From: Candidatus Gastranaerophilales bacterium
GTDB taxonomy: Bacteria > Cyanobacteriota > Vampirovibrionia > Gastranaerophilales > Gastranaerophilaceae
Length of the DNA stretch: 64,000 nt
Direction of reading: 5' to 3'
NCBI GenBank assembly: GCA_944325735.1
Contig: CALVBI010000002.1
Span: 248,001 to 312,000 of the forward strand
A program made the translations under genes and the position numbers. A model generated the notes under the pieces. It had not been told where the DNA came from. It was given only the letters and a program-made list of their open reading frames with translations, and searched no databases. Below, piece by piece: positions 30,561-40,554 of this stretch; within the stretch, counting starts at the first letter, position 1; every line of letters begins with the position of its first letter.

Positions 30561-30641
30561 TATTTTGTTTTTGTAACTATACAAATATTTCCATATATGT
30601 TATAATAAAATTGTGATACTTTGACCAATGTGAGGATATTT

Positions 30642-32726
30642 ATGAAGAAGATTGATCTGTGCGCAATTTTGCGTAAAGAAGCCTGTTCTAGGCTGACAAA
30701 ATTTATGCGTTCTGCTTATACTTTAGCAGAAGTAATAATTGTAATGTTAATTATTGCAGTTATTGTCGCTGTGAGTATAGGAATTACTAAAGCGAAGTTA
30801 GATAATGTAATATCTTATACTTATTATAATAGTTATTCAACATTACGAGAAATAACAACCGATATGCTTGCAAATTGGGATCCCAAAAATCCAGAGTATA
30901 AACAAGCATTAATCCAAGAAGAAAATATTTTTAATAATTTTAAGGTGTTGGCTTATATTAAAAATTTTTTTGAGCAGCCTGTAATTGCTGCTACACGACC
31001 ATCTGGCGGATCTTCTGATCGAGATCCTAGTACGAATACTGGAGCTGTTGGTAGACGTTGTACTGCTACTAAAGTTTGGGTTTTGTGTTATGATTCTGTT
31101 CACGTTGCCTGTGGAGCTGATGCTTGTTATCAAACTTGTTGGGATGGCTCACGGATTGGCTTTTGGTTAGAATGTCCTCCTCAAGAAGTAACCTGTTGGG
31201 ATGGATCTAAAGCTCCTAATGCATCATCGTGTCCACCAAAAATTTCTTGTTGGGATGGAAGTTATGCAACAAGTAGTTCTAATTGCCCAAAAGCAACCTG
31301 TTGGAATGGTTCTCAAGCTAATACACCATCAGATTGTCCTCCTAAAGTAGGTTGTTGGGATGGTAGTTATTCCACAAGTTTGTCAAGTTGTCCTAAGGCA
31401 ACTTGTTGGGATGGTTCTCAAGCCAATACTCCATCAGATTGTCCAGATAAAATCGCTTGTTGTGATGGTTCCTATAAAACAGATGCATCACAATGTCCAC
31501 AACAACAATCTTGTTGGGATGGTAGTACCGTTTGTGGCGGCAGTTGTCCACAAAAAATCACTTGTTGGGACGGCAGTTTTGCAACAAGTAGTTCAAAATG
31601 TCCAAGTTATGTAACCTGTTGGAATGGCGAAAAGAAACATAATTCATCAGAATGTCCAAAAGCAGATTGTTGGAATGGCACTCAAGCTAATACACCATCA
31701 GATTGTCCACCAAAAATCACTTGTTGGGACGGCAGTTTTGCAACAAGTAGCTCAAATTGTCCAAGTTATGTAACCTGTTGGGACGGAAGTAAGAAGTATA
31801 ATTGGTCAGAGTGTCCAGCTTGTACAAATAAGCCAGATCCATTGCCTTGTGGGCAAGGCTGGGATGACCATACTTGTCAATTAACAGGATCAGCTAAGAC
31901 ATGTCCAGGTGGTCAACACTTGAATAGTGGTTGTGAATGTGTATTGGATTGTCCAAGCAATTTGACCCCATGTCAGCAATGTAGCAATGAAACTGGCGTA
32001 GTATCCAAAAATCCAAATATAAATAGAACATGTAGTGATGAAACCTATGAATGGAGTGAAGAACAATGTAAATGTATCATCTCTCCACGCACATTGCCAC
32101 GTCAGGGTGCAAACTTCTGTAAATTATTTGAAGCCAATGCTAATATAATGGGGAATACCGATGTTTGCCAAGGCAGTGCAATAGCATCAAATACAACCGA
32201 CTTTTCAGATAAAAAACCTGATGTAACTTTACGAAACGGTTTACGTATATATAATATGCACAATGACGCAACAGCAATAGCAATGTTAGCAGGAAATACT
32301 CAGGGCGGTGTATATGATGGAGTTCCAAACACCAATGCATATGGTTACACTGTATATATTGATATTGATGGCGTAAAAGGTGATTCCAAATTATGGAGTG
32401 ATGTTTATCCATTTTATATCACTTTATCTGGAAAAGTAATTCCAGGCTATGATGCAACTGCAAATCCAAGCGGATCCGGTGCAGATAGTAAAAGTCATAT
32501 GCAAGTAAGTGTTGAATATGAACATTATAATGGAGGCAAACGCTCAATCACTTGGTTAGCTAAGAGTGTACCATTTAAAGAAGGAGCTTGTTTATCCGGT
32601 TATGTTGGCGATGGAACACCATATTGTAAAAATAATGGCGCAGTAACAAAAGCTCCAAATTGTACAACAGATTCAGATTCAGTCTGTCGTGTAAAACAAA
32701 TTAAACCGGTTAAGTTTTTCTTCTAA
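30642..32726 (+). CDS. Prepilin-like protein with 13 Cys-rich CWDG repeats
   Basis: The ATG at 30642 follows GTGAGGA; a TTG at 30621 is in frame but has no site. The 694-residue product has a 33-residue leader ending RSA, a prepilin helix YTLAEVIIVMLIIAVIVA with Glu at +5, and then, from about residue 165 to 393, thirteen tandem units of 16-19 residues of the form C-W-[DN]-G-S-x(8)-C-P. A second Cys-rich segment follows, then a C-terminal pilin-like domain with YTVYIDIDGVKGDSKLW. Each unit could form a disulphide loop, giving a stiff stalk or adhesin on a pilus tip. It has its own terminator and no homopolymer tract. Confidence 0.82.
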   Translation: MKKIDLCAILRKEACSRLTKFMRSAYTLAEVIIVMLIIAVIVAVSIGITKAKLDNVISYTYYNSYSTLREITTDMLANWDPKNPEYKQALIQEENIFNNFKVLAYIKNFFEQPVIAATRPSGGSSDRDPSTNTGAVGRRCTATKVWVLCYDSVHVACGADACYQTCWDGSRIGFWLECPPQEVTCWDGSKAPNASSCPPKISCWDGSYATSSSNCPKATCWNGSQANTPSDCPPKVGCWDGSYSTSLSSCPKATCWDGSQANTPSDCPDKIACCDGSYKTDASQCPQQQSCWDGSTVCGGSCPQKITCWDGSFATSSSKCPSYVTCWNGEKKHNSSECPKADCWNGTQANTPSDCPPKITCWDGSFATSSSNCPSYVTCWDGSKKYNWSECPACTNKPDPLPCGQGWDDHTCQLTGSAKTCPGGQHLNSGCECVLDCPSNLTPCQQCSNETGVVSKNPNINRTCSDETYEWSEEQCKCIISPRTLPRQGANFCKLFEANANIMGNTDVCQGSAIASNTTDFSDKKPDVTLRNGLRIYNMHNDATAIAMLAGNTQGGVYDGVPNTNAYGYTVYIDIDGVKGDSKLWSDVYPFYITLSGKVIPGYDATANPSGSGADSKSHMQVSVEYEHYNGGKRSITWLAKSVPFKEGACLSGYVGDGTPYCKNNGAVTKAPNCTTDSDSVCRVKQIKPVKFFF
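31134..31820 (+). repeat. Tandem coding repeats of about 54 bases (13 units)
   Basis: Units encode T/S-C-W-D/N-G-S followed by a variable stretch and C-P. There is higher-order alternation of an ATSSSNCP unit with a QANTPSDCP unit. Two 63-base stretches near 31559 and 31719 differ at only two positions, pointing to recent duplication or gene conversion. Confidence 0.9.
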
Positions 32727-34370: not shown

Positions 34371-34817
34371 ATGATTATTGATAGTTTAGAAAATATTGCT
34401 TTTTATAATAACATCCCTCAAAATGTAATTGATTTTATTAAAACTTTAACCCCTCAAATAGAGGTTGGGCGCTATGAAATTGACAATGATTCTTATGCAA
34501 ATATTGATGTATATGAAACTAAAAATTTAAATGATTGTAAATTTGAAGCCCATAAAAATTATATTGACATTCAAATGTTATTATCAGGTATTGAAGAATT
34601 AGATTATACTCCAGTTAAAGGTTTAACTATATCAGAAGAATACGATGTAAAAAGAGATGTAATGTTTTTTGAAAATCCTAACAGAATTTCAGACAGTGTA
34701 ATTTTAGAGGCTGGGAAGTTTGCTTTAATTTATCCGCATGAAGCCCATAGACCTCAAGTTGCTTTTAATGCAACTTCAAAGACTGTTAAAAAGGTTGTTG
34801 TTAAAATTCATGTTTAG
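34371..34817 (+). CDS. YhcH/YjgK/YiaL-family protein
   Basis: The 148-residue cupin-like protein has the family segments EAHKNYIDIQMLLSGIEEL and KFALIYPHEAHRPQVA with His residues in the metal-binding positions. Members (DUF386) are linked to sialic-acid and related sugar catabolism, but the exact activity is not settled. It starts 3 bases after the transketolase half-gene and overlaps the convergent membrane-protein gene by 4 bases. Confidence 0.88.
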   Translation: MIIDSLENIAFYNNIPQNVIDFIKTLTPQIEVGRYEIDNDSYANIDVYETKNLNDCKFEAHKNYIDIQMLLSGIEELDYTPVKGLTISEEYDVKRDVMFFENPNRISDSVILEAGKFALIYPHEAHRPQVAFNATSKTVKKVVVKIHV

Positions 34818-35815
34818 GCAACAGTTTGTTTTTCTTTTTTATGTTTTCCAGTGAATGCTGGTTGTACAACTTTTTTAATTACAACGTGTTCTACAAAATT
34901 ATCAATAGGTTTAATAGCTAATCCAAGAGCAACAAAACCGCCTATTGTTTTTAGAATTTTTGCATTCATAATTTTGCTTTTTTGATATTTTTTAATAATA
35001 TCTTCAGCAGCATCTCTTAAATATGTTTGTTTATAATCTGGATCTTTTGCGTATTTAGTTTTTAATTTAGAAAATTTATCCCACATTTTATTTGAGAATT
35101 CTGTAGGTTTTTTATTTTCTTTTAAATTTTCATAGATTTTAAACATTTCATCAATATGTTTATCCGCATATTGTAAAACTTTATCTTTTTGCGACATAGC
35201 AATAGATTCAGGGTGTCTTTGCCCAAAAATATTTTCTGTTAAAAATTTTATAGGTCTTTTTAATTTATTTTCTCTTATTAATTTTTCTCGTTTTGTAATT
35301 AAGGATTCGTGGAATTGTTCTTTAAAACCTTCAATATTGTTATCGTATTTGTTTAAATGTCTGCGGCTTGTAAATTCTTGTAGGAAATTAATAATTTCTT
35401 CTTGTGATTGTAATGTAAGCCCTGTTTTGCTAATCATACCTAGTCCTGATGCAGCTTTTTGCCCGGCAATTACAGCTCCTGTAGGCATAATTACACTTGC
35501 TAATAATTGAAATATTGCTTGTTCTGTTCCTCTTTTGCTATCAGGATTATATGAAGTTTTTTCATTTTTATATTTGTCGTAAATATCAGCTCCAAAATAA
35601 AGCATAGCAGGGAACCATAGCAATGTCCCTAATTTGGGCGCTACTTCACTTATCGCTGCTCCTAATTCGTTAGAATATGCTAATCCACGGGCTGGCCATT
35701 GCATTAGTGGGTCTGAGTATGTTTGTTGTTTTTTTTCTTTGTTAACATTTTCTTTTGTACCAAATGCAGGGACATTACTTTTTAGAGTAACGTTATTAGG
35801 GGTTATTGTAATCAA
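34814..35815 (-). CDS. Lineage-type membrane protein of unknown function
   Basis: The TTG start at 35815 is supported by AGGAG at 35828-35824 with 8-base spacing. The 333-residue protein begins with a polar tail MITITPNNV ending VPAFGTK, then hydrophobic segments near residues 60-75 (TLLWFPAMLYFGA) and 100-118 (ASVIMPTGAVIAG), a Lys-rich helical middle, and a final hydrophobic helix (TIGGFVALGLAI). The pattern is shared with the proteins at 36142 and 45920. No known function. Confidence 0.7.
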   Translation of the reverse strand: MITITPNNVTLKSNVPAFGTKENVNKEKKQQTYSDPLMQWPARGLAYSNELGAAISEVAPKLGTLLWFPAMLYFGADIYDKYKNEKTSYNPDSKRGTEQAIFQLLASVIMPTGAVIAGQKAASGLGMISKTGLTLQSQEEIINFLQEFTSRRHLNKYDNNIEGFKEQFHESLITKREKLIRENKLKRPIKFLTENIFGQRHPESIAMSQKDKVLQYADKHIDEMFKIYENLKENKKPTEFSNKMWDKFSKLKTKYAKDPDYKQTYLRDAAEDIIKKYQKSKIMNAKILKTIGGFVALGLAIKPIDNFVEHVVIKKVVQPAFTGKHKKEKQTVA

Positions 35816-35978: not shown

Positions 35979-36053
35979 ATGTCAAACTTAAATTTAAACA
36001 CTCAATCTTGGTGGCGCCTGTTAGATAAAACAGGTCTTTTAAGTTGGCAATAA
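35979..36053 (+). CDS. 24-residue leader peptide with tandem Trp codons
   Basis: ATG at 35979 follows AAGGA at 11-base spacing. The peptide starts MSNLNLNTQSWWRLLDK and ends LLSWQ, with Trp codons at 36009-36014 (two adjacent) and 36045-36047, that is 3 of 24 residues. The adjacent TGG codons lie just before the first arm of a set of competing hairpins, as in trp operon leader peptides. The peptide itself probably has no function beyond controlling ribosome position. Confidence 0.75.
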   Translation: MSNLNLNTQSWWRLLDKTGLLSWQ

Positions 36054-36112
36054 GCTGATAATAAATTTTTAAGTTTTAAAATGACCTGTTTAAATTTGCA
36101 GGTCATTTTTTT
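36017..36112 (+). promoter_or_regulatory. Trp-type transcription attenuator
   Basis: Three mutually exclusive pairings can be read. Arm 1 (CCTGTT, 36017-36022) pairs with arm 2 (AACAGG, 36029-36034). Arm 2 extended (AACAGGTC, 36029-36036) pairs with arm 3 (GACCTGTT, 36083-36090) as an antiterminator. Arm 3 within AAATGACCTG (36079-36088) pairs with arm 4 CAGGTCATTT (36099-36108), followed by a T-run, as an intrinsic terminator. A ribosome stalled on the Trp codons would cover arm 1 and favour the antiterminator. The controlled gene starts at 36142. Confidence 0.75.
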
Positions 36113-36141
36113 GTTGTCAGTTTATATAAAGGAAATTACTA

Positions 36142-37362
36142 ATGAAAACTAATAAAGTTAATAATATATCATTTACTAATGCTGGGAATATTGGAACAGG
36201 ATTGAAAGTTGCAAGTAAAATTATAGGAATACAAGAAGGTGGTGCAGGGTTATCTAATATAAGATTTATTCAAGATAGTGCAACAGGCCTTGTGCCTAAA
36301 GCTGTATTTGCAAGAAGTAAAGCTGATTTAGGTGAAAATACATTTTTAGAGTTATCAGAATCTGTTTTGGTATATTATTTCCCTACAATTTTAGGAGAGG
36401 GAATTTTTAGAAAATTATATTCTAAAAAGCTTCCAACTGATTTGAAAAAACAAATAGCAACTCCTGCCGTGGATTTATTAAAGACTAATAATCAGGCAGT
36501 AAATAAAAAATTATTACCGGTTAAAGCAGCTCTTGCATTGAGTGCTTTTGCTATTCCTTTAGTTGAATATACTCTTAATTATTTTAAAAATTTAATGACT
36601 TTGAAGGTTTTTAAACAATCAGATTTTGAAAATATTGCTAATTTGAATAAAAAGAAATCAGAAAATACGGAACAAGCAAAAAAAGTAGAGAATAGTGCAA
36701 AAAAACATATTAAGTTAGCTGCAGGCATTTATTCTGCTTGTCTTGCTTTGAGTGCATTATTGATCAAAAAAGGTGAAAAATCTAAATCTCTTCAAAATAT
36801 TTCTGAAATGATATTAGCACCTGGTACTAAGTTTTTTAAAAATAATAAAAAGAAAGCTGATTTTTTAAATAAATATTTTAGTCTTGATTTTGCTGATAAC
36901 AACGGGAAATTAGCATTAAGCAGAGGACAGCTTACATCTTGTGTTTTAGTTGGCGGAGTCGGATATTTTGGAGCATCAAAAGATAGAGGAAAACAGAATT
37001 TTCTAGAAACTTTGTTCAGATATCCTCTTGTTGGTTTTTATATTATTTGCGGAAATGAATTGTTAGAAAAAGGCTTTAGAAAATTCCTTTACAAGAATGG
37101 AAAATGCAAAGAATTGATTAATGAAAAATTAGAAGTTCCTAATTTAAAAGATTTAAGAGGTATTGCGGAAAAACATGGCGGTGATATTGATGCTATGTAT
37201 AAAAAACTTTTAAAACAAAAAGTATTAATCGCAGGTCTACCATTGTTATTTGGAATTGGAGTTATGGGATTTTTTATTGCAGGAACTTCAAACCTGTTTA
37301 CTAAATTTAGATATAACAGAGATGTAAAAAATAAAGAACAAGGTAAAAAGGAATTAATATAG
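36142..37362 (+). CDS. Trp-free lineage-type membrane protein downstream of an attenuator
   Basis: The 406-residue protein begins with MKTNKVNNISFTNAG and has several hydrophobic segments: YYFPTILGEGIF (about 92), ALALSAFAIPLVEY (about 132), AGIYSACLALSALLI (about 195), SCVLVGGVGYFGA (about 272) and a C-terminal helix VLIAGLPLLFGIGVMGFFIAG, followed by a basic tail. It contains no tryptophan. ATG follows AAAGGAAA. It is the only gene after the Trp attenuator because the next gene converges on it, so its expression should rise when charged tRNA-Trp is scarce. Its biochemical role is unknown; transport is possible but not supported by a recognised motif. Confidence 0.75.
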   Translation: MKTNKVNNISFTNAGNIGTGLKVASKIIGIQEGGAGLSNIRFIQDSATGLVPKAVFARSKADLGENTFLELSESVLVYYFPTILGEGIFRKLYSKKLPTDLKKQIATPAVDLLKTNNQAVNKKLLPVKAALALSAFAIPLVEYTLNYFKNLMTLKVFKQSDFENIANLNKKKSENTEQAKKVENSAKKHIKLAAGIYSACLALSALLIKKGEKSKSLQNISEMILAPGTKFFKNNKKKADFLNKYFSLDFADNNGKLALSRGQLTSCVLVGGVGYFGASKDRGKQNFLETLFRYPLVGFYIICGNELLEKGFRKFLYKNGKCKELINEKLEVPNLKDLRGIAEKHGGDIDAMYKKLLKQKVLIAGLPLLFGIGVMGFFIAGTSNLFTKFRYNRDVKNKEQGKKELI

Positions 37363-39792: not shown

Positions 39793-40554
39793 TTATAGTT
39801 TTTGGTATACGTGTTCAAATATTTTCATAAATTTGTTTTCTAAAAGATATCTGTCAATAAATGTGTTAGAAGTATCATGTTGTCCAATAATAAACATACT
39901 TCCTTGTTTTAATTTATTAGATACAATTTTAACAAATTTTTCTACTTTGTTATCTTCAAAATATCCTAATATGTTTCTGCATAATAATATTGTGTCAGAA
40001 TTATCATTTAGTTCTGCCAAAATGTTATACATATCAGCTCTTTCAAAGTGAACTCTGTTTTTTAATAAATTTGTTGCTTTTAATGTTTTTTTATTTTGAA
40101 GAGTTATATCCTCTTTTATGTTAAGTATTTTATTTGTTTCTGTAAAATATTTAGAATAATCTTCAGAGTTTATTTGAAGAGACATTCTATCTACCAAACT
40201 AGTATTTATAAGTCCGCTTCTTGCCGCATTTACAATTTCTTCATCTATATCATAAGCTTTAATAGGGAAAAATTTATCAGAATTTTTATTCGGATAATTT
40301 TCAAGAAGAGAGATTATTTGCGTATAAGCTTCAGAACCGTCAGAAGATGCAAATTGGATTATATTAACTCTATTTATATTGCAAAAATGATTTTTTTCAT
40401 ATTTAGCAAGTCTTTTCCATTCTATATCGTCTCTAAAAAGCCAGCTGTTTGTCCCAAATTCGTCACCATTTGTGGTTGTGTAAAATCTTGCACAGCTGCC
40501 AAATGAAAACTTATTAGGGTATTGTTGATAGTTTATTCTTTGTTGAATTTTCAT
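39793..40554 (-). CDS. CheR-like SAM-dependent methyltransferase
   Basis: The 253-residue protein shows the CheR-type order: IIQFASSDGSEAYTQI (SAM-binding motif I, replacing the usual CSTGEE), IKAYDIDEEIVNAARSG, and DTILLCRNILGYF (motif corresponding to the FCRNVLIYF of CheR). CheR enzymes methylate chemoreceptor glutamates, but no chemotaxis genes are nearby and the N-terminal CheR helical domain is lacking. The N-terminal tail ends in NKFSFGSC, like other unknown proteins here. It may methylate something else. Confidence 0.72.
   Translation of the reverse strand: MKIQQRINYQQYPNKFSFGSCARFYTTTNGDEFGTNSWLFRDDIEWKRLAKYEKNHFCNINRVNIIQFASSDGSEAYTQIISLLENYPNKNSDKFFPIKAYDIDEEIVNAARSGLINTSLVDRMSLQINSEDYSKYFTETNKILNIKEDITLQNKKTLKATNLLKNRVHFERADMYNILAELNDNSDTILLCRNILGYFEDNKVEKFVKIVSNKLKQGSMFIIGQHDTSNTFIDRYLLENKFMKIFEHVYQKL

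Follow-up and report, generated by a model that had tools for sequence, protein, structure and literature searches.

Attenuators are a textbook device of biosynthetic operons. In the E. coli trpL leader of the trp operon (PMC1183508), a short leader peptide with adjacent Trp codons precedes helices 1:2, 2:3 and 3:4 and an intrinsic terminator, and the same arrangement is found at the locus described here, whose leader even repeats the Trp-Trp-Arg motif. The two systems differ in that the target here is an orphan predicted membrane protein in an apparent Trp auxotroph and not Trp biosynthesis, in that the leader ORF, when of the long type, spans arms 1 and 2, and in that a further, outer helix extends as far as the ribosome-binding site of the gene. 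Rfam holds no family, attenuator leaders included, that matches the leader at the gathering score, and a permissive search returned chance-level matches only. Predicted Trp attenuators of trpS and of trp operons have been found by comparison in Actinobacteria (PMC1262725); these share the classical Trp-codon leaders, some of them before non-biosynthetic genes such as trpS, but belong to a different phylum and have a different target. In the same work, methionine operons had no conserved RNA element ahead of them, and riboswitches are cited for such operons elsewhere, whereas a sister clade of the gene described here has Met-codon leaders. Low cognate bias, whereby proteins that serve to replenish an amino acid are themselves poor in it, is a signature of amino-acid supply and biosynthetic pathways (PMC4209129). 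Here, in contrast, its bearer is an orphan predicted membrane protein, and the purge of Trp is near complete and reciprocal between sister clades. TnaC, an arrest peptide that senses free Trp (PMC8429421), likewise places a Trp-related leader peptide before a gene, but differs in target, logic and leader lengths, and in that the Trp pair alone is invariant here. What is new in the present system is the target family, the use in apparent auxotrophs, the outer helix, and the existence of a Met counterpart with reciprocal depletion.

Organization of the leader region

The window, that is the whole stretch of 64,000 nucleotides analysed (G000:C2:248001-312000), comes from a genome of 1.94 Mb, whose closest named relatives are Candidatus Gastranaerophilales metagenome assemblies. 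The relatives used throughout are also nearly all metagenome assemblies, and everything reported was computed from assemblies, with gene starts picked automatically, a few of them uncertain. The features of the locus are as follows.

35979..36053, forward strand: leader peptide ORF MSNLNLNTQSWWRLLDKTGLLSWQ*, 24 codons, with WW invariant in 77/77 orthologous leaders
36009..36014, forward strand: adjacent Trp codons TGG TGG, the regulatory codons
36016..36022, forward strand: arm 1, which pairs with arm 2 and would be masked by a ribosome stalled on WW
36029..36036, forward strand: arm 2, partner of arm 1 or arm 3
36045..36047, forward strand: third Trp codon (codon 23), near the leader stop
36050..36065, forward strand: 5' strand of the outer helix, overlapping the leader stop codon
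36078..36112, forward strand: intrinsic terminator, with 3:4 stem 36078-36089/36098-36109 and T run
36083..36090, forward strand: core of arm 3, partner of arm 2 (antiterminator) or arm 4 (terminator)
36110..36125, forward strand: 3' strand of the outer helix, separated by about 2 nt from the Shine-Dalgarno of the main gene
36128..36134, forward strand: Shine-Dalgarno-like AAAGGAA of the main gene
36142..37362, forward strand: main gene, encoding a predicted helical membrane protein of 406 aa without Trp (Trp clade of an undescribed family)

The leader runs from ATG at 35979 to TAA at 36051-36053 and has a Shine-Dalgarno-like AAAAGGAAA directly 5' of it. Properties by which a trp-type attenuator is recognized are found together at this site: a leader ORF that can be translated and has cognate codons side by side, helices 1:2, 2:3 and 3:4 that exclude one another, the position of 3:4 as an intrinsic terminator ahead of the structural gene, and regulatory codons so sited that a stalled ribosome would mask arm 1 and leave arm 2 free. 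When sub-stretches are folded, the RNA with all arms present forms 1:2 and 3:4 (z -4.5), and withholding of arm 1 and arm 4 gives the 2:3 antiterminator (-16.8 kcal/mol, z -3.5). An earlier, sequence-only reading of this DNA had proposed the 24-codon leader with its adjacent Trp codons and the three alternative pairings; the former is present as described, and the latter are borne out by the folding of sub-stretches and by covariation across relatives. That reading had also announced a 10-bp terminator with a U-run, of which the terminator and its T run stand, but the stem comprises 12 pairs, A-T included, and not 10. The third leader Trp codon and the outer helix were both absent from it.

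The main gene stands between opposing genes, and since the gene that follows is on the opposite strand, 36142-37362 constitutes a single-gene unit. The claim that the sole downstream gene encodes a 406-residue Trp-free membrane protein thus holds, with no Trp encoded at 36142-37362 and a membrane character that is predicted. The neighbouring gene at 34817-35815 was considered as a relative of this protein and ruled out, as the two have no similarity. Elsewhere in the window, in this apparent Trp auxotroph, 30621-32726 encodes a protein with a pilin-like N-terminus followed by a Cys/Trp-rich part made of 12 CWDG/CWNG repeats, with 20 Trp and 52 Cys.

Conservation and covariation among relatives

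A family search covered 146 genomes, of which 59 (G004 included) carry an orthologue. The WW leader precedes 57 of these 59 orthologues (56 of the 58 first examined, plus that of G004), and the remaining two retain a single-Trp leader with arms. A second scan, of named gut Gastranaerophilales genome records, yielded 80 loci that partly overlap the first set, and WW was present at each of the 77 loci with enough upstream DNA. An additional Trp codon downstream of WW, defining the long type to which the leader in the window belongs, occurs in 34 of these 77 leaders.

The helices are conserved along with the codons. Among 25 diverse leaders, 94% of cells are paired in the 1:2 and 3:4 helices, with 33 two-sided changes, a result reached by 0/500 shuffles, and the 2:3 helix is paired in 91% with 15 two-sided changes. 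Sliding of the partner strand abolishes pairing, and the covariation of 1:2, 2:3 and 3:4 exceeds both shuffles and slid controls. Because pairing is conserved and covaries across relatives, these helices lie far beyond chance, which excludes chance hairpins as their origin. In one clade (g24-like) the arm sequences have been replaced with the 1:2 and 2:3 pairing kept, and automatic arm finding missed a few loci with unusual arms, hence the arm counts are lower bounds. Five leaders of the g24-like clade (L034, L036, L037, L039 and L040) keep WW and have new arms, long extra downstream hairpins and no obvious classic terminator, and possibly employ a different read-out. A lack of conservation of the leader peptide and of its pairing in relatives would have refuted the sequence-only reading, and the comparison did not refute it. 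Its proposal of a Trp-responsive function appears well supported by this comparison, given the conserved WW, the covarying helices and the conserved Trp-free protein.

A covariance model of the leader finds credible matches solely upstream of this gene. A multi-gene Trp regulon was considered and rejected, as the model identifies one site in this genome, with weak extra matches elsewhere that are unrelated, chance-like terminators.

An outer helix next to the ribosome-binding site

The outer helix comprises 16 pairs (36050-36065 with 36110-36125), and the read-through 5' UTR containing it folds with z -5.98. In about two-thirds of Trp-clade loci, a segment that surrounds or follows the leader stop pairs with sequence whose end lies next to the ribosome-binding site of the gene or on top of it. 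Across 65 loci, the true partner strands have a mean energy of -11.2 kcal/mol, as compared to -6.6 (sd 0.32) for swapped partners, and all 39 significant outer helices overlap the ribosome-binding site or end at most 12 nt away from it. In the Met clade as a whole the outer helix is weak. In long leaders its 5' strand starts at either the final Trp codon or the stop codon, and thus leader ribosomes would open this helix as well. Since the terminator lies nested inside the outer helix and the antiterminator would cross it, this helix would close leaky read-through RNA and open in starvation, which suggests a second, translational lock.

A Trp-free predicted membrane protein of an undescribed family

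The 406-aa protein belongs to no Pfam or NCBIfam family, and neither by sequence nor by fold was a significant solved relative found in the PDB or a match to solved amino-acid transporters. Its AlphaFold model is all-helical and confident (pLDDT 84.5, pTM 0.81). Hydropathy averaged over the family indicates about 4-6 membrane spans, few of them strong, and the composition of the family protein is very, unusually basic.

Absence of Trp is a conserved, selected-looking trait of this protein, found in 96% of 92 distinct Trp-clade proteins, with 0.011 Trp per 100 aa in the Trp clade as compared to 0.73 in the proteins of the window. By chance alone, about 5% of single proteins of 406 aa would contain no Trp, and hence only the family-wide pattern is convincing. 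Two positions, each occupied by Trp in 37 of 38 Met-clade proteins, carry Leu or Phe in 88 of the 92 Trp-clade proteins, and three Trp-clade proteins retain Trp at one such position, which suggests that Trp was lost within the Trp clade.

Short Phe-Gly/Phe-Lys-Gly-like motifs occur near the N- or C-termini of many family proteins, for example in the window protein at 36142 (NNISFTN), in L069 (PSFKG) and at the C-terminus of L228 (SFG repeats). Similar terminal motifs are present in an unrelated ORF of the window (39793-40554), and they are possibly a localisation signal in this order.

A sister clade with Met-run leaders

The homologues that share about 44% identity group into a clade of their own, sister to the Trp clade (SH-aLRT support of 99 for the Trp clade and 90 for the Met clade). 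Their leaders contain no WW and instead have runs of Met such as MNNITNAMMMNMMMQGSGYGSLYFLLRM*, and the same was seen at 29 further loci, some of them repeats of genes already counted, with fewer Met codons in a few. Met-run leaders with antiterminator and terminator arms were noted upstream of Met-depleted homologues at L061-L071, L221-L232, L246-L260 and L262-L290. A terminator is present in 36 of 38 Met-clade loci, and the 2:3 helix outperforms its shuffles in 32 of 36. Arm 2 starts at a median of 12 nt past WW in the Trp clade and 13 nt past the last Met pair in the Met clade. The leaders upstream of Met-clade genes are hence predicted to be Met attenuators. Literature searches on attenuators with Met-rich leaders and on auxotrophy within the order returned nothing relevant; we know of no earlier ribosome-mediated Met attenuator, and none is named in the papers searched.

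The clades also differ reciprocally in composition when compared: the Met clade contains 0.74 Met per 100 aa versus 1.36 in the Trp clade, about half (p 2e-9), and every Met-clade protein contains Trp, usually 2-4 residues. One Met-clade member, L228 (G012:C33:37602-39086, minus strand), has an Ile/Leu-rich leader, MITSLNIAIISLIIISLLDSKRLLYCECEI*. Its protein contains 16 Met versus about 4 expected (P 1e-6) with Ile not reduced, so that in this single case the switch of leader would have gone with loss of the Met depletion. Upstream of a distant homologue in another family of the class (L235 in G195), a Met-rich short ORF, MPLLLLLPPTITLIAVMGMMMLMAMPMMCMAPAGVGWMTGQGYER*, was observed, which may represent the ancestral state.

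Amino-acid synthesis and transport in the host genomes

Neither trpE nor trpA was found in this genome. Among the 146 family genomes trpE occurs in 11, namely in 0/59 with the gene and 11/87 without it (Fisher p 0.003, a value that ignores phylogeny). The pattern of trpA agrees, with the one exception of G049, which has the gene and trpA with no trpE match. MetH and MetE were found in 0/146 family genomes, and control genomes gave matches. Judged by this comparison, these gut relatives of cyanobacteria seem to make neither Trp nor Met, the latter judged from MetE and MetH. Most family genomes without trpE are also without the Trp-clade gene, and hence their bearers must rely on other means of obtaining Trp. 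The Trp-clade gene occurs together with SNF-family transporters in 4/31 genomes versus 55/115 otherwise (p 4e-4, a contrast confounded by phylogeny), and this rare co-occurrence fits a replacement of function.

An origin of the leader by copying from a trp operon was rejected, as no close copy was found in the DNA upstream of trpE in two trpE-positive relatives. In G123, a relative that has trp genes, a short ORF with a W-A-W stretch lies upstream of trpE (L073, about 974-1330) and is possibly a separate trp-operon leader.

Proposed mechanism and alternative explanations

Taken as a whole, the locus is best read as a ribosome-mediated attenuator controlling a protein for amino-acid acquisition that is new in family and fold, a reading to which a probability of roughly 0.6 is assigned from the comparison of sequences. 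Its first part, attenuation by shortage of Trp-tRNA, is very probable; granted this, an acquisition role for the product is somewhat favoured. The attenuator would sense charged tRNA-Trp and control a single gene in an apparent Trp auxotroph. When Trp is ample, the leader would be translated past WW, so that helices 1:2 and 3:4 arise and transcription is terminated. Under a shortage of Trp-tRNA, the ribosome would stall on WW and mask arm 1, so that 2:3 pairs and the gene is read. The outer helix would form solely in read-through RNA and silence leaky transcripts, and the product, purged of Trp, could still be made in the starvation that induces it. Both this direction of response and the acquisition function are what we infer: a low content of Trp or Met in the cognate clade, coupled to a switch opened by shortage, means that the protein probably helps the cell to obtain that amino acid. 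Trp uptake or salvage would be the likeliest role of the 406-aa predicted membrane protein, and the sister clade would likewise serve to acquire Met under control of its Met-run leader. The depletion and the missing trp genes also suggest that the downstream gene has a place in Trp metabolism, as the target of a trp-type attenuator would. Points against this reading are that no transporter fold is recognisable in the protein, that only about 4-6 membrane spans are indicated in an unusually basic sequence, that most family genomes have neither trpE nor this gene, and that G049 combines the gene with trpA.

The same attenuator could instead control a starvation-response protein, active in dormancy, envelope remodelling, attachment or peptide scavenging and not in acquisition. 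A fold without a significant PDB match and a basic protein with few strong membrane spans are in line with this, and such a product would be expected to be Trp-free too, for which Trp-poor chlamydial persistence proteins offer a comparison (PMC3937554). However, the split of one family into Trp and Met clades that differ in both leader and depletion fits amino-acid-specific acquisition better, and so does the rarity of the Trp-clade gene beside SNF-family transporters, within the limits set by phylogeny; the starvation-response role is thus considered less likely, though not remote. Much less room is left for a leader that acts mainly on translation, its ribosomes unfolding the outer helix, and for which termination is of lesser weight. 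The energy of matched over mismatched strands and the invariable closeness of significant helices to the ribosome-binding site argue for it, but conservation is no lower for the terminator stem with its T run or for the competing 2:3 helix, and the outer helix is clear only in the above two-thirds of Trp-clade loci, which makes this order of control improbable.

A nascent-peptide sensor of free Trp, resembling TnaC and turning the gene on when Trp is abundant, could draw on the recurring context of WW (Asn at -3 in 51/77 leaders and Leu at +3 in 64/77) and on the fact that, in short leaders, arrest at the early stop would place a ribosome over arm 1 too. Yet WW is the sole invariant codon pair of the 77 leaders, with no conserved arrest residues beyond Trp, and the Leu codon at +3 (CTG) falls inside arm 1. 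The distance from the first Trp to the end of the leader varies widely (4, 5, 6 or 14 codons), long Met runs like those of codon-counting attenuators are used in the Met clade, and a Trp-free product would make no sense for a gene induced by plenty. A sensor of this kind is accordingly very improbable, and attenuation by Trp-tRNA shortage is retained as the preferred reading. A wider version of it, offered tentatively and at somewhat less than even odds, would see a new class of acquisition proteins in these non-photosynthetic gut relatives of cyanobacteria, in which a swappable leader sets the amino acid sensed (Trp, Met and, once, Ile/Leu), each of the Trp and Met branches is purged of its own amino acid, Met is read by a ribosome-mediated attenuator of its own, and a dual lock acts on transcription and on translation.

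Biological significance

In this system an attenuator would guard an orphan membrane protein in apparent auxotrophs, with the sister clade using Met codons. As the leader would reveal the purpose of an otherwise uncharacterized family and the amino-acid purge serves as an independent witness, the function becomes directly testable. The finding would bear on the competition of gut bacteria for tryptophan, which is a signal for the host and for other microbes.
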